The notes below the pieces were generated by a model. That model saw only the letters and a list, made by a program, of their open reading frames with translations, searched no databases and was not told the origin of the DNA. Positions 5,682 to 40,416 of a DNA stretch of 40,516 nucleotides are shown here, piece by piece. The stretch lies in NCBI GenBank assembly GCA_013150915.1, contig JAADJE010000068.1:1-40516 (forward strand). The letters are read 5' to 3'. The translations under genes and the position numbers were made by a program. Position 1 is the first letter of the stretch, and each line of letters starts with the position of its first letter. This DNA is from Gammaproteobacteria bacterium (GTDB taxonomy: Bacteria; Pseudomonadota; Gammaproteobacteria; BMS3Bbin11).

Positions 5682-7559
5682 ATGGCTGATAAAAAAGACA
5701 AAACACCATCGGAAGAGAGCGCGGAATCTGAATTAACCACCAGCAATTCGCTTGAGAAACCTTTGCTCGATGAAAAACCGCCTAAAGAAACGGCGGATAT
5801 CGACACTTCATATCTCACACTTGATGAAACATCGGGGCAATCTAACGATACGCTAGAAACTGTACAGGATCTTGAAACACCTGCCATTGATACCTCTCAC
5901 CTGTCCCTGGAAGAGGACGACAAGACAAAACCTTCAAATCGTCCCACTGAAGATTTAAGCCAGGACAACAATAAGACAGATGAAGGGACTCCCTCAGATG
6001 AACCACAGGCTGATACTTCAGTAGATAAACCGGAACCCGCCGAAAAGTCGCTTTTTGTTAAAAACCCACTGGCAAAAAAAGCAGCTGGACCGTCTGTAGA
6101 TTTACCTTCAGAAAAAGAGGCTCAGGCGCCGGCAAAGAGGGATGAGACTGAGCAGGTAATGCTGGCCACAGGGGTCTCTGACGCAGAATTTGATAAAGAG
6201 ATTCAGGCTGATACTGCAGGCAAGGCCCCCTCTAAAAACCCTAAAAGTGACGAAGACAGGCATTCTGAAGGCCCCATTAAATCCATTCTGGAAACAGTAA
6301 AAAAACCCGAAAGTATCGTCCGGAAAGCCTGGTCAGACAGCTCTACCCGACGATATCTTATCGATAATATCGAATCTTTTCGGGCTAAAGATGAAGATCA
6401 GAACATGGAAAGTGTCATCGAAAATGTTTACGGTGGTGCTATCGAAAAAAAAATTGCACCCGGCAAGTTTCTTAAGGAGAATTTATTATTCAGTTTTTTA
6501 CTTCTCATCTTCCTGTTCCTGGTAGGATGGAAAGTTGCTGGCATCTTTTTCCCTGAATTTATGCCAGCACTCAATGATCAGATTATTGAAACTGTACAGA
6601 AAACGACAAATAAAAAAAGCGTCACCAAACCTACCAAAAAGAAAAAACTCATTGCAACAAATGTTGCAAATAAAGAAAAAATAGATGTGGTTCTTTCACA
6701 TTGTCTGATTGAACCCGACGCACGCATTGTGTTTACCCGTAACTTTGCCCGTGTCGGTTACGAATTCTCTCAACGACCTCCTCTGACTCTCTCCTATGAG
6801 GAAGTAAAATATTCCATTCGTTCCTGGGAAAACATGAATATGGAATTCTACATCAAGGATACCGTTTCCCGCTTTCGTGAACTTGCGAGACTCGCCCTTC
6901 CCATTATGCAAAATGCAAAAAAAATAGTTTCTGACTACAATCAGTCACTGTCACGGGTCAAAGAGCAGGTCAATACGCTGGAATATCGCATCCGTAACAT
7001 CCAGACCCGCGGCGGCAATCAGACAACCAACACGATTAACGAACGTATACCCTTACTTAGCAAATTAGATGAAATTAATGCAAGACTTGTAGATGAGCCG
7101 GATCAAAAGAGGTTCGATAAGCTACTGAAGAAAATGCTATTAGTTGAAAATATTTTATCCGGGCGCGAGAAGCCGAAAAGACTCGAACCGGATCAACTCA
7201 CGGAAGATGACCCCGAATGGTTGCTGAGCACGGCTGAAACACCATCAAGTGATATCGCAACCCCGATCATTGGTAAGGTACTGCCTTCTATCGAGATACC
7301 CGCAGATAAACTTAGAAAGGTATTTCCCAAGCTAACGGCCTTCCGTCTGTCTGAACTCGAAAACGCACTGGATGACCTGCTAACATTAACTGCGTTAATC
7401 GTTTATCTTCCTGAGAACAAACTTATTCCTTATAAACTGGAGCTATCAGGCCTGAATCGGCGACTGAACAAAGTAATGAAGAAAGAACTTCCCGCATGGA
7501 TGAACGTTGACCGATGTCTGGCCAAAGGGCGTGCAGAAGTTTCTGCTGCTTCCGAATAA
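5682..7559 (+). CDS. Unrecognised single-pass membrane protein with long acidic N-terminal region
   Basis: Family not recognised. The 625-residue protein has three parts. Residues 1-260 are low-complexity, rich in Asp, Glu, Ser, Thr, Lys and Pro, and contain a repeated motif, DTSYLTLDE (41-49) and DTSHLSLEE (70-78). One strong transmembrane segment lies at about 267-290. A basic linker rich in Lys follows (about 308-335), then a 290-residue C-terminal part that is mostly helical, with coiled-coil-like stretches near 400-440. With no signal peptide, a cytoplasmic N-terminus and periplasmic C-terminus is the simplest topology, but this is inference. The start ATG at 5682 lacks a clear Shine-Dalgarno. 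It sits between cca and an ICMT-like gene, neither of which suggests a role. Long uninterrupted frame and normal codon use make it a real gene. Confidence 0.85.
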   Translation: MADKKDKTPSEESAESELTTSNSLEKPLLDEKPPKETADIDTSYLTLDETSGQSNDTLETVQDLETPAIDTSHLSLEEDDKTKPSNRPTEDLSQDNNKTDEGTPSDEPQADTSVDKPEPAEKSLFVKNPLAKKAAGPSVDLPSEKEAQAPAKRDETEQVMLATGVSDAEFDKEIQADTAGKAPSKNPKSDEDRHSEGPIKSILETVKKPESIVRKAWSDSSTRRYLIDNIESFRAKDEDQNMESVIENVYGGAIEKKIAPGKFLKENLLFSFLLLIFLFLVGWKVAGIFFPEFMPALNDQIIETVQKTTNKKSVTKPTKKKKLIATNVANKEKIDVVLSHCLIEPDARIVFTRNFARVGYEFSQRPPLTLSYEEVKYSIRSWENMNMEFYIKDTVSRFRELARLALPIMQNAKKIVSDYNQSLSRVKEQVNTLEYRIRNIQTRGGNQTTNTINERIPLLSKLDEINARLVDEPDQKRFDKLLKKMLLVENILSGREKPKRLEPDQLTEDDPEWLLSTAETPSSDIATPIIGKVLPSIEIPADKLRKVFPKLTAFRLSELENALDDLLTLTALIVYLPENKLIPYKLELSGLNRRLNKVMKKELPAWMNVDRCLAKGRAEVSAASE

Positions 7560-16777: not shown

Positions 16778-17770
16778 TTGGATAGAAGAAAACAAATAAT
16801 TCATAACTGGATCGAGTCTCTTTACCCTACTGAGAAATTTAGCCTCGAACCGGCCTCCAGTGATGCCAGCTTTCGACGCTATTTCAGGCTCTTTATAAAC
16901 CACACCGGTCACGCTGATGGCCTGATCGTGATGGATGCACCACCGGAGAGCGAGGAAATCACCGTATTCTGCCGTCTGGCCAGACGTTTTCTCAAGCTCG
17001 GCATCAATGTCCCGCATATTTTGCATACCCATAAAGTACAGGGTTTTGTCCTGATGACAGACCTGGGTAGTCGGCATTATCTCGACAGCCTGAATGATAA
17101 CACTGTCGAGCGACTTTATGGTGATGCCCTCGGGGCCCTCGTGACACTGCAGACAGGCACCTTTGATGACCCCACCTTTCTGCCGCCATATTCAGCACAA
17201 CGGCTACGCCAGGAGATGGATCTCTTTCGAGAATGGTATTTGTCAACACACCTTGGTCTGGAAATCACCGCAGAAGAAAATAAAACTATGGATGAGGCCT
17301 GGCAGCTACTTATCGAGTCCGCTCTGGAACAACCTCAATTATGGGTGCACAGAGACTTTCATTCGCGTAATTTGATGGTTACTGACATCCATAATCCGGG
17401 TGTCCTCGATTTTCAGGATGCGGTAACGGGCCCTATTACCTATGATCTGGTTTCGTTACTGAAAGACTGCTATATCGAATGGCCCAAAGAACGCATCGAA
17501 GACTGGGCGCTTGGCTACCATGACCTGGCCTTGCAATCCGGTTTGCTTGAAAAAGAAGATGAACAACAATTTTTACGCTGGTTCCACCGCATGGGGATAC
17601 AGCGCCACCTGAAAGTTGCCGGTATTTTTGCCCGTTTGTCACACCGTGACGGGAAAAACCTCTACCTGAATGATATTCCGTTAACCCTCCGCTATCTGCT
17701 GTCAGCCCTACAGGATGACCCGGATCTGGATCGGCTTTACCAACTGGTAGCAGCAAAAATACCTCAATAA
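16778..17770 (+). CDS. amgK: MurNAc/GlcNAc anomeric kinase AmgK
   Basis: Phosphorylates the anomeric carbon of MurNAc (and GlcNAc) in the peptidoglycan recycling route that bypasses de novo UDP-MurNAc synthesis. It is an aminoglycoside-phosphotransferase-fold protein of 330 residues. The catalytic loop is HRDFHSRNL (191-199) with Asp193 and Asn198, and the metal-binding Asp211 is in LDFQDAVTGP. The start is a TTG; the only nearby ATG (16762) is followed one codon later by a stop, and the next in-frame ATG would remove 50 conserved residues. One base separates its stop from the murU ATG, so the two are co-translated. The position divergent from lptD-surA is the same as in Pseudomonas. Confidence 0.92.
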   Translation: MDRRKQIIHNWIESLYPTEKFSLEPASSDASFRRYFRLFINHTGHADGLIVMDAPPESEEITVFCRLARRFLKLGINVPHILHTHKVQGFVLMTDLGSRHYLDSLNDNTVERLYGDALGALVTLQTGTFDDPTFLPPYSAQRLRQEMDLFREWYLSTHLGLEITAEENKTMDEAWQLLIESALEQPQLWVHRDFHSRNLMVTDIHNPGVLDFQDAVTGPITYDLVSLLKDCYIEWPKERIEDWALGYHDLALQSGLLEKEDEQQFLRWFHRMGIQRHLKVAGIFARLSHRDGKNLYLNDIPLTLRYLLSALQDDPDLDRLYQLVAAKIPQ

Positions 17771-17771
17771 C

Positions 17772-18470
17772 ATGGCCGAAAAGAAATATGCAATGATACT
17801 GGCGGCTGGACGCGGTGAAAGGCTGCGGCCCCTAACCGATAACACGCCGAAGCCCTTGCTCAAAGCCGGCCCCAGACTGCTGATCGAGCATCACCTGCAT
17901 TCCCTGTCGACGGCAGGCTTCAGTGATGTGGTGATTAATATTGGTCACCTTGGGCAGCAAATTATTGATCAAATTGGCGATGGATCGCAATATCAGCTAT
18001 CAATCCAGTATTCAGATGAAAGGAACCGTGTACTTGAGACGGGTGGCGGTATATTCAAGCCCCTGCCGTTACTGAAATCCGAAAATTTCCTGGTCATTAA
18101 CGGTGACATCTGGACGGATCTTGATCTTTCTACATTACAGGTGGAGATCGATAGCCTCGCTCATCTGGTACTGGTAAGCAATCCCGTGCATCACCTGCAG
18201 GGGGATTTTTCTCTACAGGGGAATCTGCTACACGAAAGAAATAATACGGAACCGTCATGGACATACAGCGGCATTGGAGTTTTCAGTCACTCACTGTTTC
18301 AGAAATGTGAGGAAGAACGCTTTGCTCTTGCTCCTCTATTACACGAGCATTTAGCTGAAGGCCAGATTACTGGAGAAGTCTACAATGGCTTGTGGTTTGA
18401 TATAGGTACCAACGAGAGGCTCGTTGAGCTTAATCATTTGCTTAAAAACAGGGGAAAGAGGAAAGGTTAA
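17772..18470 (+). CDS. murU: MurNAc-1-phosphate uridylyltransferase MurU
   Basis: Converts MurNAc-1-phosphate and UTP to UDP-MurNAc, the step after AmgK. The 232-residue nucleotidyltransferase has the signature LAAGRGERLRPLT (10-22), KPLL, and metal-binding Asp112 in VINGDIW. It begins one base after the amgK stop. The last codons (RGKRKG, stop) lie inside the left arm of a 40-bp inverted repeat, so the natural C-terminus was probably altered when that repeat arose. Because this route avoids MurA, organisms carrying it may be less sensitive to fosfomycin, as known in Pseudomonas. Confidence 0.93.
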   Translation: MAEKKYAMILAAGRGERLRPLTDNTPKPLLKAGPRLLIEHHLHSLSTAGFSDVVINIGHLGQQIIDQIGDGSQYQLSIQYSDERNRVLETGGGIFKPLPLLKSENFLVINGDIWTDLDLSTLQVEIDSLAHLVLVSNPVHHLQGDFSLQGNLLHERNNTEPSWTYSGIGVFSHSLFQKCEEERFALAPLLHEHLAEGQITGEVYNGLWFDIGTNERLVELNHLLKNRGKRKG

Positions 18471-33672: not shown

Positions 33673-33958
33673 CGTGGTATTTTTACCCATATCGTCCATA
33701 TTGGCTGCCCCATAGAATCTCTGGATTACGTCATAAAACTACATTATTATGAGCGAGGTATGGTAATCTTATATCCTATAATCAATCACTTATAGGTTGC
33801 TTCGGTACTATGTTCCTCGCAAAAATGAATAATTCAGAAGTACCCTATATAACTAAATGCTTGTTGAATTTTTCCAAAAAAAACTACAAACTCCGATAAA
33901 ACCATACAATTATAAGGGTATCCACATCCTTATTATTCTTCCAAGGAGACTCGCCAAG
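33673..33958. other. Leader region of the DUF1302 operon
   Basis: This 286-bp A+T-rich spacer separates gatB from the envelope operon. No hairpin terminator for gatB and no convincing -35/-10 pair were found. The frame of the next gene is open back to 33857, but AAGGAGA at 33943-33949 and a signal peptide fix the start at 33959. Confidence 0.5.
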
Positions 33959-35707
33959 ATGACTGATACTCCCCGCAATAACGCCGGTAACATACTCCGG
34001 TTGTCGCTTTTATCCATTGCCGTGACGGCGCTTACAACAGGCCCTGCTCAAGCATTTATCTTTAATAATGGTGATCTGCAAGGCAGTCTCGATACGACTA
34101 TCTCCTACGGTGCGCGCTGGCGTGTACAGGATCGGGATCAGTCGATCATTGGCAAGGCCAATGGCGGTACAGCCAATTCGGTCAATGGCGATGATGGCAA
34201 CCTGAACTATGACAAGGGGCTGGTTGCCAATGTCCTGAAGATCACACCGGAACTCGAGCTTAATTACAAAAATTATGGTGCTTTCTTCAGAGCTTATTAC
34301 TTCTATGATTTCGATATCATGGGTAGTAATACAGCGAGAACACCCTTGAGCAATGACGCCAAAGACCAGGTCGGTGAGAAAGGTGAACTACTGGATGCGT
34401 ATGTCTGGGGCAGCTGGGAGGCCGGAGGGAAACCTTTTGACGTCCGACTGGGTAATCAGGTTATTAACTGGGGTGAAAGTACATTTATCCAGGGCGGTAT
34501 GAACAGTATCAACCCGGTGAATGTTAACAATCTGCGTGTGCCCGGGTCCGAGTTGCGTGAGGCACTGAAACCTGTGCCAAGAATCTGGGCAAGTCTGGCT
34601 GCAACGGATAAAATATCAGTGGAGGGTTTTTACCAGACCAACTGGAAAAAAACAATTATTGACCCGGTCGGCAGCTATTTCAGTAGCAGCGATCTCGCGG
34701 GTGAAGGGGCAGAAAAGGTTGTGCTGGGCTTTGGTAGCGCCCCGGATAATCCCGCATTCCCAACAACCGTTGTTCCCAGAGGCAACACCAGAGATGCCAG
34801 GAATGGTGGTGAATACGGCCTTGCAATGAACTATCTAACAGACAATGCCACAGAATTCGGCTTCTATTTCGTTAACTACCACAGCCGTCTGCCTATCATT
34901 AGTGCGATGACAGGAAGCCTTGCCGGAGCGCTCGGTGGTGACTACCGAGCCAGTGCGCGTTATTTCATTGAATATCCGGAAGACATCAAAATCATTGGCA
35001 CCAGCTTCAACACTGAAATTGGTAACAGTGGTATATCCTGGCAGGGGGAACTGACTTACAAGATCGACGCACCGTTACAAATTGATGATACCGAATTACT
35101 GCTCGCTGCTCTGACCCCTGTAGCGCCTGCCCTGGGGGCCATCAACCAGGTCGGGACATTTGGTTTCGGCCAGGAAATCTCCGGTTACAAAAGGCTGGAT
35201 GTCGCACAAATCCAGTCTACCGTCACCCAGGTGTTTTCGAATATCATGGGCGCAAACCAGCTGGCTATAGTCGGTGAAGTCGGCTTTACCCAGGTCATCG
35301 ATATGCCCAGCTATCAGACGTTACGGTTCGAAGGCCCGGGCACTTACACCTCAGGCAGCCCCTTCCCCACGGTAGCAGGTGTTCAACCTGCCACTGAAAA
35401 GCCAGAAGGCTTTGCCACGGCCGCCTCCTGGGGATACCGCCTGCTCGGTCGCTGGCGGTATGACAATGCGTTCAGCTCTATCAACCTAAGTCCACGTATT
35501 GCCTGGGCACATGATGTCAGTGGCACGACACCTGGACCCGGTGGGAATTTCATCGAAGGTCGCAAGGCATTATCTATCGGCCTGAATGCTGTCTACCAGC
35601 AGACCTGGTCAGCTGATATCGCCTACACGCGTTACATGGGCGCTGGCCGATATAATCTGATCAACGACAGAGACTTCGTCTCTTTTAATATCAAGACATC
35701 ATTCTAA
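33959..35707 (+). CDS. DUF1302 outer-membrane barrel-like protein
   Basis: DUF1302 family; predicted outer-membrane beta-barrel of unknown substrate. The start at 33959 has AAGGAGA and gives 582 residues. A signal peptide (core LLSIAVTALTTG) ends after AQA, followed by FIFNNGDLQGSLDTTISYGARWRV, typical of the family. Alternating strands and Tyr/Trp girdles run through the protein, and it ends in Phe (FNIKTSF), a BAM recognition feature. It shares motifs such as RLGNQVINWGES and YQTNWKKT with family members. Its stop overlaps an ATG of the next frame. As first gene of the four-gene operon it is likely the outer-membrane component. Confidence 0.85.
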   Translation: MTDTPRNNAGNILRLSLLSIAVTALTTGPAQAFIFNNGDLQGSLDTTISYGARWRVQDRDQSIIGKANGGTANSVNGDDGNLNYDKGLVANVLKITPELELNYKNYGAFFRAYYFYDFDIMGSNTARTPLSNDAKDQVGEKGELLDAYVWGSWEAGGKPFDVRLGNQVINWGESTFIQGGMNSINPVNVNNLRVPGSELREALKPVPRIWASLAATDKISVEGFYQTNWKKTIIDPVGSYFSSSDLAGEGAEKVVLGFGSAPDNPAFPTTVVPRGNTRDARNGGEYGLAMNYLTDNATEFGFYFVNYHSRLPIISAMTGSLAGALGGDYRASARYFIEYPEDIKIIGTSFNTEIGNSGISWQGELTYKIDAPLQIDDTELLLAALTPVAPALGAINQVGTFGFGQEISGYKRLDVAQIQSTVTQVFSNIMGANQLAIVGEVGFTQVIDMPSYQTLRFEGPGTYTSGSPFPTVAGVQPATEKPEGFATAASWGYRLLGRWRYDNAFSSINLSPRIAWAHDVSGTTPGPGGNFIEGRKALSIGLNAVYQQTWSADIAYTRYMGAGRYNLINDRDFVSFNIKTSF

Positions 35708-35733
35708 TGACGCGAAAGTTTGGAGAACACATT

Positions 35734-37101
35734 ATGAAAATTACCAAAGCTGTATTACTTTTCACTACACTGACGCTGTCATTACTTGGTTTCACCACTA
35801 CTCAGGCAGCCGTCTCTGAAGCCGAAGCTGCTCGTCTTGGTAAGGATTTGACCCCAATGGGTGCCATCAAGGCAGGCAATGCCGAGGGCACGATACCCGC
35901 CTGGGATGGCGGTATCACCACACCCCCTGCGGCGTATAAACCCGGTGATCATCATCAGGATCCCTATGCGTCTGACAAGATACTCTATACAATTACTGCA
36001 CAGAACAAGGATCAGTACAAAGACAAACTGACCGCTGGTCATCTTGCCATGCTCGATACCTATCCCGACAGTTTCAAGATAAATGTTTACCCAACCCGGC
36101 GTAGCGCGTCTTACCCACAACGAATCTATGATGCAACACGGAAAAATGCCACTCGGGCTACATTAGTTGCCGATGGCAACGGCGTTAAAGATGCCATCAT
36201 TGGTATCCCGTTTCCAATACCGGCCAATGGACACGAAGCCATCTGGAACCATCTGCTGCGTTTTCGCGGTGACATAGTCGGTCGCTGGATAGCACAAGCC
36301 GCCCCGACAAGGAGCGGTAAATATACCCTGGTCAAATTTGAAGATGAATTCGACATGCTATACAGCAAGCCAGGGGCAACATTTGCAGGCCTGGACAACG
36401 TTATCCTGTATTTCAAACAGAAGGTTATCGCCCCTGCCAGACTTGCCGGCTTTATCCTGCTGGTACATGAGACACTCAATCAGGTCAAACAGCCACGTAG
36501 CGCATGGACCTACAACACGGGCCAGCGACGTGTTCGTCGGGCACCGAATGTCGCCTATGATAACCCTGGGACCGCTTCTGACGGCTTGCGTACTTCTGAT
36601 CAGTTTGACATGTTCAACGGGGCACCGGATCGCTATAACTGGAAACTGCTTGGTCGTAAAGAAATGATAGTCCCTTATAACGACTACAAACTTCACAGTA
36701 AAGACGTCAAATACAAAGACATCCTGACACCAAAGCACATCAACCCGGATCTGACTCGTTATGAACTACACCGTGTCTGGGTAGTAGACGCCACAGTCAA
36801 AGAGGGCATCAGTCATATCTATTCCCGCCGCACCTTCTATATTGATGAGGATAGCTGGCAGATTCTGGCTGTCGATCAATACGACCGACGCGGCAATCTG
36901 TGGCGTGTTTCGGAAGGCTTCGTGATCAACTACTACAATGTCCCCACCCTGTGGACGACACTGGAAGTCCATACCGATCTGCAGGCAGGGCGCTATCTGG
37001 CCATTGGCCTGGACAATGAAAGTCGTATGTACGACTTCAACCTGAAAAGAACAGCCGCAGACTATACACCTGCTGCACTGCGTCGTGAGGGCCTGAGGTA
37101 A
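35734..37101 (+). CDS. DUF1329 periplasmic protein
   Basis: DUF1329 family, usually encoded next to DUF1302. The start at 35734 is chosen because GGAGA lies upstream and a signal peptide follows (LLFTTLTLSLLGF, cleavage near TQA); an ATG at 35707 overlapping the previous stop would add nine residues. Mature start VSEAEAARLGKDLTPMGAIKAGNAEGTIPAWDGG is highly typical. The rest is beta-rich with many aromatic residues. I recall structural likeness to LolA/LolB-type lipid carriers; if correct it could ferry a hydrophobic ligand across the periplasm. That is inference. 455 residues. Confidence 0.85.
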   Translation: MKITKAVLLFTTLTLSLLGFTTTQAAVSEAEAARLGKDLTPMGAIKAGNAEGTIPAWDGGITTPPAAYKPGDHHQDPYASDKILYTITAQNKDQYKDKLTAGHLAMLDTYPDSFKINVYPTRRSASYPQRIYDATRKNATRATLVADGNGVKDAIIGIPFPIPANGHEAIWNHLLRFRGDIVGRWIAQAAPTRSGKYTLVKFEDEFDMLYSKPGATFAGLDNVILYFKQKVIAPARLAGFILLVHETLNQVKQPRSAWTYNTGQRRVRRAPNVAYDNPGTASDGLRTSDQFDMFNGAPDRYNWKLLGRKEMIVPYNDYKLHSKDVKYKDILTPKHINPDLTRYELHRVWVVDATVKEGISHIYSRRTFYIDEDSWQILAVDQYDRRGNLWRVSEGFVINYYNVPTLWTTLEVHTDLQAGRYLAIGLDNESRMYDFNLKRTAADYTPAALRREGLR

Positions 37102-37132
37102 ACGCTTTATACGATAGAGGCACTTCCATTCA

Positions 37133-38104
37133 TTGAAAGGTCTATCGATTTTGTTTCAGCCTTATCAGACAAAGTCTTTTTTCACAAGCATCCTGATTGC
37201 CTCGTTGCTGTGGGCACTGCCTGTCACAGCCAACGAGCAGTCAGAGCCTGCCAGGCTTGCCAGTCATGCACTGCTTCTTGACATCAGCCTTGCCGGGACA
37301 CGACTCATTGCTGTTGGTGAGAGGGGGATTGTACTTATCTCCGATGACAGCGGGAAATCCTGGCAGCAAAAACAGGTGCCGACTCGCAGTCTACTGACCG
37401 CCGTCTTTTTCGTTGATGAGCAAATTGGTTGGGCCGTGGGCCAGGACGCAGTGATCTTATCCACTGTTGACGGAGGCGACAGCTGGGTTCTACAACATCG
37501 TGACAAACAGTACGATGACCCGTTGCTCGATGTCTGGTTCAAAGACCGCAATAATGGTTTTGCCATTGGTGCCTACGGCCTGTTTCTATCCACTAATGAC
37601 AGCGGGAAAAGCTGGGATCGTCGACAAATCAGCGAGGATGACTTTCACCTCAATGCCATCAGCTCCCTCGGCAATAATGAACTCTTCATCGCTGCCGAAC
37701 AGGGACATTTGTATCACACTGTAGACGGTGGCTACAGTTGGACAAAACTCCCCTCACCGTATGTCGGATCATTTTTTGGTATCACAGGAATCGATCAGGA
37801 GACCATCCTGCTCTATGGCCTACGTGGAAATCTTTTTCGCTCAGCCGACAAGGGCGTAACTTGGCAAAAAATCGAAACAGGTACAGAGGCCTCTTTAATG
37901 GCAGCCCTGGTACAAAGGAACAGTACTATTCGCATTGTTGGACTGGGGGGAAACATTCTCACCAGTACCGATCAGGGGAAAAGCTTTTCACTCAGGGTAC
38001 GTGCAGACAGAAAAACACTGACCTCGATAATTGAGACCACAGACGGTCAACTGGTGATGACCGGCAGCGCAGGCATTACAATAGAGCCTGGAGATTCAAA
38101 GTGA
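37133..38104 (+). CDS. YCF48/BNR-repeat beta-propeller protein
   Basis: Predicted exported six-to-seven-bladed propeller. Six Asp-box motifs of the form S-x-D-x-G-x-S/T-W/F are seen near residues 70-77, 110-118, 153-161, 195-203, 237-244 and 278-285 (for example SDDSGKSW, TVDGGDSW, TDQGKSF). The start is a TTG at 37133 with AGAGG 12 bases upstream; no ATG exists before the signal-like segment (SILIASLLWALPVTA). It is related to HCF136/Ycf48, the photosystem II assembly factor, but in this context it has nothing to do with photosynthesis. Probably a periplasmic assembly or scaffold part of the operon. Overlaps the next gene by four bases (GTGA). Confidence 0.85.
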   Translation: MKGLSILFQPYQTKSFFTSILIASLLWALPVTANEQSEPARLASHALLLDISLAGTRLIAVGERGIVLISDDSGKSWQQKQVPTRSLLTAVFFVDEQIGWAVGQDAVILSTVDGGDSWVLQHRDKQYDDPLLDVWFKDRNNGFAIGAYGLFLSTNDSGKSWDRRQISEDDFHLNAISSLGNNELFIAAEQGHLYHTVDGGYSWTKLPSPYVGSFFGITGIDQETILLYGLRGNLFRSADKGVTWQKIETGTEASLMAALVQRNSTIRIVGLGGNILTSTDQGKSFSLRVRADRKTLTSIIETTDGQLVMTGSAGITIEPGDSK

Positions 38105-40416
38105 GTGAGAAAACTGACCTGGTGAATCGTATCAGTGGTCTGATCTTCCGTTTCAGACCACTGGTAATACTGTTTTTCCTCAGCGCCACGCTATTCATGC
38201 TATGGAGTGCCACGGCACTAAAAGTCGACGCAGGGTTTAACAAACTGCTACCGCTGGAACACCCCTACATGAAAACCTTCGTCAAATACCAGACGGAATT
38301 TGGTGGGGCAAATCGTATACTGATCGCTATCACTGTCGATAAAGGTGACATCTTTACCCCCGAATTCTTCAACACCCTGAAAAATATCACAGATGAAGTC
38401 TTCTTCATCCCGGGGGTTGACCGCTCACAGGTAAAATCCCTGTTTACACCGAATGTACGCTTCATAGAGATTGTTGAAGACGGCTTCGCTGGTGGAAATG
38501 TCATACCTGCCGATTTCCAGGGGACCAAAGAGGATCTGATTCAGGTAAGAAAAAACATCCTCAAGTCCGGTCAGGTAGGCAGACTGGTTGCAAACGATTT
38601 CAGCGGCGCCATGATCACGGCAGGTTTACTGGAGAGAGACCCTACTACCGGGGAGCGCATCAACTATCAGAAAGTTGCACAACATCTTGAAGATATCCGC
38701 CAGAAACATGAAACCGCCAGTATACATATCATCGGCTTTGCCAAGGTAATCGGTGATATTACTGAAGGCGCACAAAATGTTCTGATGTTCTTTGCCATTG
38801 CTTTCATCATCACAGGCATACTCGTTTATCTCTACTCGTTGTCACTGTGGCTCACGGCCCTCCCCCTGCTCACATCATTAACGGCTGTTAGCTGGCAGCT
38901 GGGTCTGCTGCCATTATTGGGTTTTGGTATTGACCCGATGTCGATACTGGTTCCCTTCCTGGTCTTTGCTATCGGTGTCAGTCACGGCGTGCAGATGATT
39001 AATTCCATGCGTTCTGAGATCTTAAATGGTGCCTCATCCAAAGAGGCGGCAAAAGCGAGCTTCCAGCGCCTGTTAGTCCCCGGCGGCATCGCCCTGGCCA
39101 GCGATACCGTAGGCTTTCTGACCATACTGCTGATTAAAATTGAGATGATCCAGGAGATGGCCATTACCGCCAGTATTGGTGTTGCCGTCATCATTCTTAC
39201 CAATCTCTTTCTACTGCCCGTGCTGCTGTCTTACCTGCCCAAAACGAAAGAAAAACTTCAATTACGGCTAAACAGACGTGTTGAACGACTGAAGCCCTTC
39301 TGGCACAAATTATCTGCATTTACCGTCAATCCACTGGTCACGGTAACGATCATTATTAGCCTGCTATTACTCGTTGCCGGACTCTGGAAAGGGTCAGAAA
39401 TCGAAATTGGTGATCTCGAACAAGGGGTGCCTGAACTGCGCAGTGATTCCCGCTACAATATCGACAGTGCAATCATCACTGACAAATTCTCCATTGGTGT
39501 AGATATCCTGACTGTCATTGCAGAAACCCGTGCCGATGGATGTATTGATTATGACACCATGTCCACTATCGACCGTTTTAACTGGCACATCCAGAATATA
39601 GCGGGCGTACAATCCGTTATTTCCCTGCCAACACTGGCTAAACTTTATAATGCCGGCTGGAATGAAGGCAACCCGAAATGGCAGGTTTTACCCCGTAATC
39701 AGCAGGTACTTGTCCAGGCCGTGACACCTGTCGATACATCGACAGGTTTGTTGAACGAAGACTGCAGCGCCATGCCAGTTCTGATATTCACCTCCGACCA
39801 CAAAGCGACGACCATCGCCCGAATTGTCGATGCCGTAAAAGAGTTTGAACAGAATAATACAAATCAAACCGTTCACTTCAGGCTTGCCAGTGGTAATGTT
39901 GGTGTCATGGCGGCAACCAATGAAGTCGTCGCTGCCGCCCAGTTCCCGATGCTACTTTATGTCTACGGTGCAATTATTACCCTGTGCCTGATCACTTTTC
40001 GCTCGCTGCGTGCCACCCTGTGCATCGTCGCACCACTCGGGCTGGTCTCCGCACTGGCTTATGCCCTGATGACTGTTCTGGGGATAGGGCTTAAAGTTTC
40101 CACTTTACCGGTTGTGGCGCTGGGTGTCGGTATTGGTGTCGATTACGGTATCTATATCTTCAATCGACTACACGAGCAACTGGATAAAGGCATGTCACTG
40201 CGCGATGCCTACGAACAGACCCTTAACATGACAGGCAATGCCGTCCTGTTTACCGGGCTGACACTGGGTATAGGTGTGTTTACCTGGATATTTTCTGATC
40301 TTCAATTTCAGGTAGATATGGGGATACTTCTGACGTTCATGTTCCTGCTGAACATGATTGCAGCTATTACTGTGTTGCCGGCGTTGGCGGCATTGCTTTA
40401 TCGGAAGCATTCCTGA
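38101..40416 (+). CDS. MMPL/RND-family inner-membrane transporter
   Basis: RND-superfamily pump of the MMPL branch (771 residues). It has a duplicated plan: TM1 (about 20-40), periplasmic loop (about 41-225), TM2-6 (about 226-380), TM7 (about 410-430), second loop, and TM8-12 (about 615-768). The proton-relay position in the second half is GVGIGVDYGIYIFNRL with Asp681-Tyr682. The matching place in the first half reads FAIGVSHGVQMINSM, with Ser-His in place of Asp-Tyr. MMPL relatives export lipids, hopanoids or glycolipids. GTG start overlapping the upstream stop indicates tight coupling. No membrane-fusion protein or TolC is in the operon. Confidence 0.9.
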   Translation: MSEKTDLVNRISGLIFRFRPLVILFFLSATLFMLWSATALKVDAGFNKLLPLEHPYMKTFVKYQTEFGGANRILIAITVDKGDIFTPEFFNTLKNITDEVFFIPGVDRSQVKSLFTPNVRFIEIVEDGFAGGNVIPADFQGTKEDLIQVRKNILKSGQVGRLVANDFSGAMITAGLLERDPTTGERINYQKVAQHLEDIRQKHETASIHIIGFAKVIGDITEGAQNVLMFFAIAFIITGILVYLYSLSLWLTALPLLTSLTAVSWQLGLLPLLGFGIDPMSILVPFLVFAIGVSHGVQMINSMRSEILNGASSKEAAKASFQRLLVPGGIALASDTVGFLTILLIKIEMIQEMAITASIGVAVIILTNLFLLPVLLSYLPKTKEKLQLRLNRRVERLKPFWHKLSAFTVNPLVTVTIIISLLLLVAGLWKGSEIEIGDLEQGVPELRSDSRYNIDSAIITDKFSIGVDILTVIAETRADGCIDYDTMSTIDRFNWHIQNIAGVQSVISLPTLAKLYNAGWNEGNPKWQVLPRNQQVLVQAVTPVDTSTGLLNEDCSAMPVLIFTSDHKATTIARIVDAVKEFEQNNTNQTVHFRLASGNVGVMAATNEVVAAAQFPMLLYVYGAIITLCLITFRSLRATLCIVAPLGLVSALAYALMTVLGIGLKVSTLPVVALGVGIGVDYGIYIFNRLHEQLDKGMSLRDAYEQTLNMTGNAVLFTGLTLGIGVFTWIFSDLQFQVDMGILLTFMFLLNMIAAITVLPALAALLYRKHS

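Follow-up and report, generated by a model that had tools for sequence, protein, structure and literature searches.

A four-gene AmeABCD-type operon as a putative trans-envelope transporter of hydrophobic molecules in a gammaproteobacterium

The gammaproteobacterial contig JAADJE010000068.1 (C69 in this study; assembly GCA_013150915.1), which was analysed over its entire 40,516 nucleotides (hereafter the window) and belongs to a 2.65 Mb genome that is 97.7% complete, carries at 33959–40416 four genes on one strand. They raise the question of what a set of envelope proteins, two of whose four families are still Pfam domains of unknown function, might carry, and which way. How hydrophobic substrates pass the envelope, and which way such pumps work, matters for bacteria that break down terpenes, aromatics, alkanes or esters. 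Judged by protein families and gene order, the operon is a further example of the AmeABCD type, a system already described in kind. It is moderately probable that it forms a trans-envelope transporter of hydrophobic molecules, with net outward movement slightly favoured; fatty-acyl lipids or fatty acids are the likeliest cargo in this lineage. An earlier reading of the letters (the sequence-only reading) had placed the same families here, and the list of open reading frames (ORFs) and Pfam searches agree with it:

33959..35707, + strand: DUF1302 predicted outer-membrane beta-barrel (AmeA-like), 582 amino acids (aa); PF06980, E 5e-181; signal peptide MTDTPRNNAG...TTGPAQA
35734..37101, + strand: DUF1329 predicted periplasmic carrier (AmeB-like), 455 aa; PF07044, E 4e-161; PF17131 LolA_like, 1e-7
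37133..38104, + strand: YCF48-like/PSII_BNR predicted beta-propeller (AmeC-like), 323 aa, with signal peptide; PF14870, E 3e-30
38101..40416, + strand: MMPL/HAE3 predicted RND inner-membrane pump (AmeD-like), 771 aa; PF03176, E 1e-34; HAE3 TIGR00921
33673..33958, + strand: gap of 286 bp between gatB and the operon, the expected promoter site

A promoter scan of this gap gave no prediction above chance. The propeller and pump genes overlap by 4 bp (38101–38104), as had been noticed before. The overlap described between the DUF1302 stop and an ATG (35707) of the DUF1329 frame is also real (TAATG at 35705–35709), but the true DUF1329 start is probably 35734, since GGAG lies upstream of it and a signal peptide beginning MKITKAVLL starts there. 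In the DUF1302 frame an alternative ATG at 33857 is possible; 33959 is preferred because a ribosome-binding site and the signal peptide fit it. The YCF48-like gene may start at TTG 37133 or at TTG 37151, of which the latter is better placed, after GAAAGG. The export signals ascribed to the first three proteins were recognised by eye as N-terminal signal sequences, and no lipobox cysteine was found in any of the three.

The four genes are a real, conserved unit. Searching genome contigs with the window DUF1329 protein yielded 80 loci with 61–85% identity, a set that was picked by similarity and therefore describes the near subfamily. These loci span Gammaproteobacteria, Verrucomicrobiota (mostly Opitutaceae), Acidobacteriota, Desulfobacterota, Myxococcota, Nitrospirota, Kiritimatiellota and Entotheonella, and the nearest named relatives of the window genome are gammaproteobacterial metagenome-assembled genomes (MAGs), including an Arenicellales MAG apparently from sediment. 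After leaving out seven loci interrupted by a contig end, the order barrel, DUF1329, propeller, pump, adjacent and on one strand, was found in 72 of the 73 testable loci. In profile searches of 114 evenly drawn gammaproteobacterial genomes at set thresholds, full-length DUF1329 was detected in 17. The pump profile matched exactly those 17 genomes; of these, 16 also matched the barrel profile and 15 the propeller profile, while the other 97 gave no match to any of the three at the thresholds used. The probability that all 15 propeller genomes fall among the 17 by chance is about 7e-17 assuming independent genomes, which these are not fully. Rare co-occurrence had been named as an outcome that would overturn the sequence-only reading; the survey gave the reverse. 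In genomes with a window-like cassette the set is complete in 12 of 12, and in those with several DUF1329 genes (G032, G097, G045 and G118) many copies stand apart from pump and propeller, as in Pseudomonas putida. Pairwise distances among the four proteins correlate across 78 cassettes (Spearman 0.64–0.75), to which shared species history contributes. In a quick tree of DUF1329 and pump, Verrucomicrobiota form one clade, and some transfer of the cassette between phyla is likely because Gammaproteobacteria interleave with Nitrospirota, Tectimicrobiota and others.

The sole testable locus without an adjoining pump (L102, from an uncultured gammaproteobacterium) has barrel, DUF1329 and propeller, with a second, weak propeller 3 kb further along. 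Bowmanella and Pelovirga are culturable relatives that carry a single cassette. A uvrA-like gene conserved upstream in Opitutaceae reflects position only and was discarded as a functional link.

Structural modelling agrees with the parts assigned to the first three proteins. In the AlphaFold2 model of DUF1329 (pLDDT 89.5), a signal peptide and an N-terminal part (about 30–160) precede a domain (162–455) that has, as modelled, the LolA/LolB superfamily fold, the lipid-carrier fold that had been predicted. A structure search matched the model to Porphyromonas gingivalis LolA3 (PgLolA3, 9tp6; Z 22.7, root-mean-square deviation (rmsd) 2.4 over 237 residues), the DUF1329 structure 4z48 (Z 20.7) and Pseudomonas aeruginosa LolA 2w7q (Z 9.0). 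This comparison concerns residues 162–455, residues 30–160 being an addition that is barely covered. The likeness to the Lol system thus lies in the fold (Z 7–23); the Lol system itself works with the ABC pump LolCDE. DUF1302 is, according to its model (pLDDT 86), a porin-type transmembrane beta-barrel with a signal peptide, as the sequence-only reading held. It is closest to the OprD/OccK family (OccK3, Z 18.5, rmsd 3.3 over 295 residues), with AlgE at a Z of about 16; a sequence search of the PDB with DUF1302 returned a single weak, irrelevant match. The propeller profile matches the solved Ycf48 structures 2xbg/5ojr at 1e-31.

The fourth protein, rightly taken for an RND protein before, has MMPL domains and polar or charged residue pairs in transmembrane helices 4 and 10 (TM4 and TM10), and proton coupling is predicted for it. 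Against HAE3 TIGR00921 it scores 208 bits, under the model cut-off of 352. Its profile matches structures of MmpL3, MmpL5 and HpnN, and the solved proteins nearest to it in sequence (MmpL3, MmpL4/5 and HpnN) export lipids or siderophores; HpnN and MmpL3 are not known to have barrel, LolA or propeller partners. Its partners in the operon are the YCF48-like, DUF1329 and DUF1302 proteins rather than the membrane-fusion protein and TolC-type channel of classical tripartite HAE1 systems. It also differs from HpnN and the MmpL pumps in its TM4 motif, Ser-His (S294-H295, window 38980–38985), which is paired with Asp-Tyr in TM10 (D681-Y682, window 40141–40146). Ser-His is present in 99 of 99 pump homologues scoring >400 bits; 94 of these homologues extend over the TM10 position, and every one of the 94 has Asp-Tyr there. 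The SH/DY pair is a candidate diagnostic mark of the cassette's pump lineage, because it is invariant in homologues, is replaced by AD/DF and AN/DD in the other pumps of the genome, and is kept in seven plasmid-borne relatives. The pumps of plasmid four-gene cassettes that share it are 41–45% identical to the window pump.

The closest precedent, which the sequence-only reading did not mention, is AmeABCD (CDM25259-CDM25262) of Castellaniella defragrans 65Phen, a system described in 2018 as an exporter of monoterpenes (PMC6394551). Its deletion reduced growth on non-functionalised monoterpenes, an effect relieved by acetate, and raised Nile Red accumulation under an uncoupler; export was proposed, together with a new HAE3 subfamily whose cassettes are conserved (PMC6394551). 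In a comparison of families and gene order as described, rather than of AmeABCD sequences, the window operon matches AmeABCD in all four families (barrel, LolA-superfamily protein, COG4447/YCF48 protein, HAE3 pump), which are adjacent, on one strand and in the same order. AmeABCD is part of an inducible monoterpene island, whereas the window copy is chromosomal, follows gatB and has no catabolic neighbours. In P. putida, PP_0765, PP_0766, PP_2018 and PP_2019 are required for growth on Tween-20, and AlphaFold predicts carrier–pump, carrier–barrel and PP_2018–pump contacts among them (PMC10866462). There, too, DUF1302 and DUF1329 proteins work jointly with a periplasmic protein and an RND pump, although the genes are split over two loci instead of forming one operon. 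In the benzene degrader Ca. Anaerobenzenivorax ORM2a, DUF1329, YCF48-related and MMPL proteins are highly expressed on benzene (PMC13101534); its 'nanopod' cluster combines them with a porin-like protein and differs by two inserted genes (universal stress and hypothetical protein). The phenanthrene-degradation cluster of Delftia has adjacent DUF1302, DUF1329 and YCF48 genes (PMC3110197, PMC3958437); the reported phenotype is vesicle loss, and no pump gene is among the genes described in the available parts of these sources.

Neighbouring genes of other copies offer clues to the substrate. Six related loci (L055, L064, L066, L072, L074 and L081) have acyl-CoA ligase (FadD-like) and FadB-like genes directly after the pump gene, together with a thiolase in five of the six and an acyl-CoA dehydrogenase in three; these loci form a single Desulfobacterota clade and therefore represent few independent events. 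In a further locus, L120, FadE is directly upstream of the cassette. Among eight plasmid loci with DUF1329 proteins 39–48% identical to that of the window, the four genes are adjacent in seven, including two rearranged orders. Catabolic genes adjoin such copies, in line with the link to degraders that the sequence-only reading had drawn: among others, benzaldehyde and alcohol dehydrogenases in Azospirillum, a sterol-desaturase-family gene on P. aeruginosa pPAMH19, and catechol-type pathway genes in Vibrio alfacsensis. The eighth locus (L155, P. aeruginosa plasmid CP109682.1) has DUF1302 and DUF1329 without propeller or pump, adjoining fatty acid-CoA ligase and thiolase genes.

Three simpler sets were found in the window genome itself:

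contig C117, L041:4166-8757: MMPL, LolA_like and DUF1302-like barrel
contig C90, L042:6914-11230: MMPL, LolA_like and a 394-aa signal-bearing protein in the barrel position (no Pfam match)
contig C40, L043:7554-12839: LolA_like, FtsX/MacB-type ABC permease and DUF1302-like barrel

The four-gene operon looks like an enlarged version of a common plan to which the propeller is added, because all three sets appear to share an energised inner-membrane protein, a Lol-fold carrier and an outer-membrane barrel (in C90, the 394-aa protein). A comparable pair, the MMPL/LolA-like protein and adjoining porin TOL_3187/TOL_3188 of Thalassolituus, is induced on C28 alkane (PMC6304351). These sets, the Desulfobacterota beta-oxidation linkage and the invariant SH/DY pump signature are new here.

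Beside the computed folds and conservation of the unit, we infer an order of hand-over, a cargo and a direction. A proton-driven MMPL/HAE3 pump would draw hydrophobic cargo out of the inner membrane or the periplasm, and the YCF48-like propeller would sit on the pump's periplasmic domain and dock DUF1329 there. DUF1329 would shield the cargo in a LolA-like cavity and carry it through the periplasm to the presumed outer-membrane port, the DUF1302 barrel. Outward movement, to the outer membrane or medium, is slightly favoured over inward because the characterised HAE3/MMPL pumps are exporters and Lol carriers run toward the outer membrane. That the propeller may replace a classical adaptor, as previously suggested, agrees with the AlphaFold contact between PP_2018 and PP_2019 (PMC10866462). 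The transporter reading is supported by the match to AmeABCD, the 72 conserved loci, the 114-genome match and the two folds, as well as by the Desulfobacterota beta-oxidation genes, the plasmid catabolic neighbours, the P. putida Tween-20 set and the propeller-less sets of the own genome; co-occurrence and folds thus bear out what the sequence-only reading had inferred. Testable constraints are set by the near-perfect co-occurrence, the gene order kept across phyla, the one-clade beta-oxidation linkage and the three-part relatives.

Several points weigh against it. Catabolic genes are absent beside the operon, as was claimed: this stands upstream, the one side on which the window allows an assessment since the contig ends 100 bp past the pump gene, and the sister genomes L028 and L029 have no catabolic operon downstream of it. 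The single window copy, fixed in position after gatB within the genus, reads as part of a core gene set and not of a catabolic island. FadE occurs in nine of 12 genomes with a window-type cassette versus 65 of 102 others; there is no enrichment and hence no genome-wide tie to fatty-acid degradation, and this association was rejected as fatty-acid evidence. For AmeABCD, the published case for efflux is weak: Nile Red accumulation differed only with the uncoupler, and efflux kinetics of wild type and mutant were almost identical (PMC6394551). What is known of the system in this host comes from genes and single-chain models, and growth requirements and degradation-gene neighbours would fit import nearly as well.

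Import, in which the DUF1302 barrel would admit fatty acids or hydrocarbons, DUF1329 carry them inward, and pump and propeller receive them at the inner membrane for activation with CoA, is a possible though less probable account. It would suit the beta-oxidation genes of the single clade, the catabolic neighbours on plasmids, the nearest barrel folds, which are uptake channels, and the need of P. putida for its set on Tween 20. It sits poorly with the export by characterised pumps and with the FadL gene of the own genome, and acetate rescued the AmeABCD mutant with limonene present, as tolerance predicts (PMC6394551). Still more doubtful is a reading in which the four proteins provide a general pathway through the envelope for fatty acids and other hydrophobes, separate from FadL, Mla/MCE and Lol: an RND-powered Lol-fold shuttle with a propeller as docking piece. 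It would belong to the core functions of certain lineages (this genus, Opitutaceae, Desulfobacterota), serve elsewhere as a mobile accessory to catabolism, and run inward for assimilation.

Delivery of lipids to the outer membrane, promoting vesicles or a surface change that aids use of hydrophobic substrates, is unlikely. Disruption of the Delftia YCF48 gene phnL, which lies beside DUF1302 and DUF1329 genes, strongly cuts vesicle production (PMC3958437), and nanopods contain DUF1302 and DUF1329 proteins (PMC3110197); the Lol-like fold of DUF1329 would fit as well. Vesicle loss may, however, be indirect, and other copies of the cassette are found within catabolic islands and not near envelope genes. 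A barrel that bears a signal peptide would usually take the Sec/BAM route, and the pump's closest solved relatives export lipids or siderophores, which makes it very improbable that pump and Lol-like protein place a porin in the outer membrane, as was proposed for TOL_3187/TOL_3188 (PMC6304351).

Upstream of the operon lie gatA/gatB, with mreBCD and cell-wall genes on the opposite strand. A serine/threonine-kinase-like gene is close to the cassette in three gammaproteobacterial loci (L121, L104 and L106). The idea that the operon substitutes for FadL was dropped, as the genome has one FadL-family gene, and an apparent Mla-type ABC ATPase near L057 turned out to be the urea transporter UrtD. 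Elsewhere in the window, a 625-aa ORF at 5682–7559 has no Pfam match, and an APH-family kinase and a nucleotidyltransferase at 16778–18470, beside lptD, are probably AmgK and MurU, which would point to cell-wall recycling and not to resistance.

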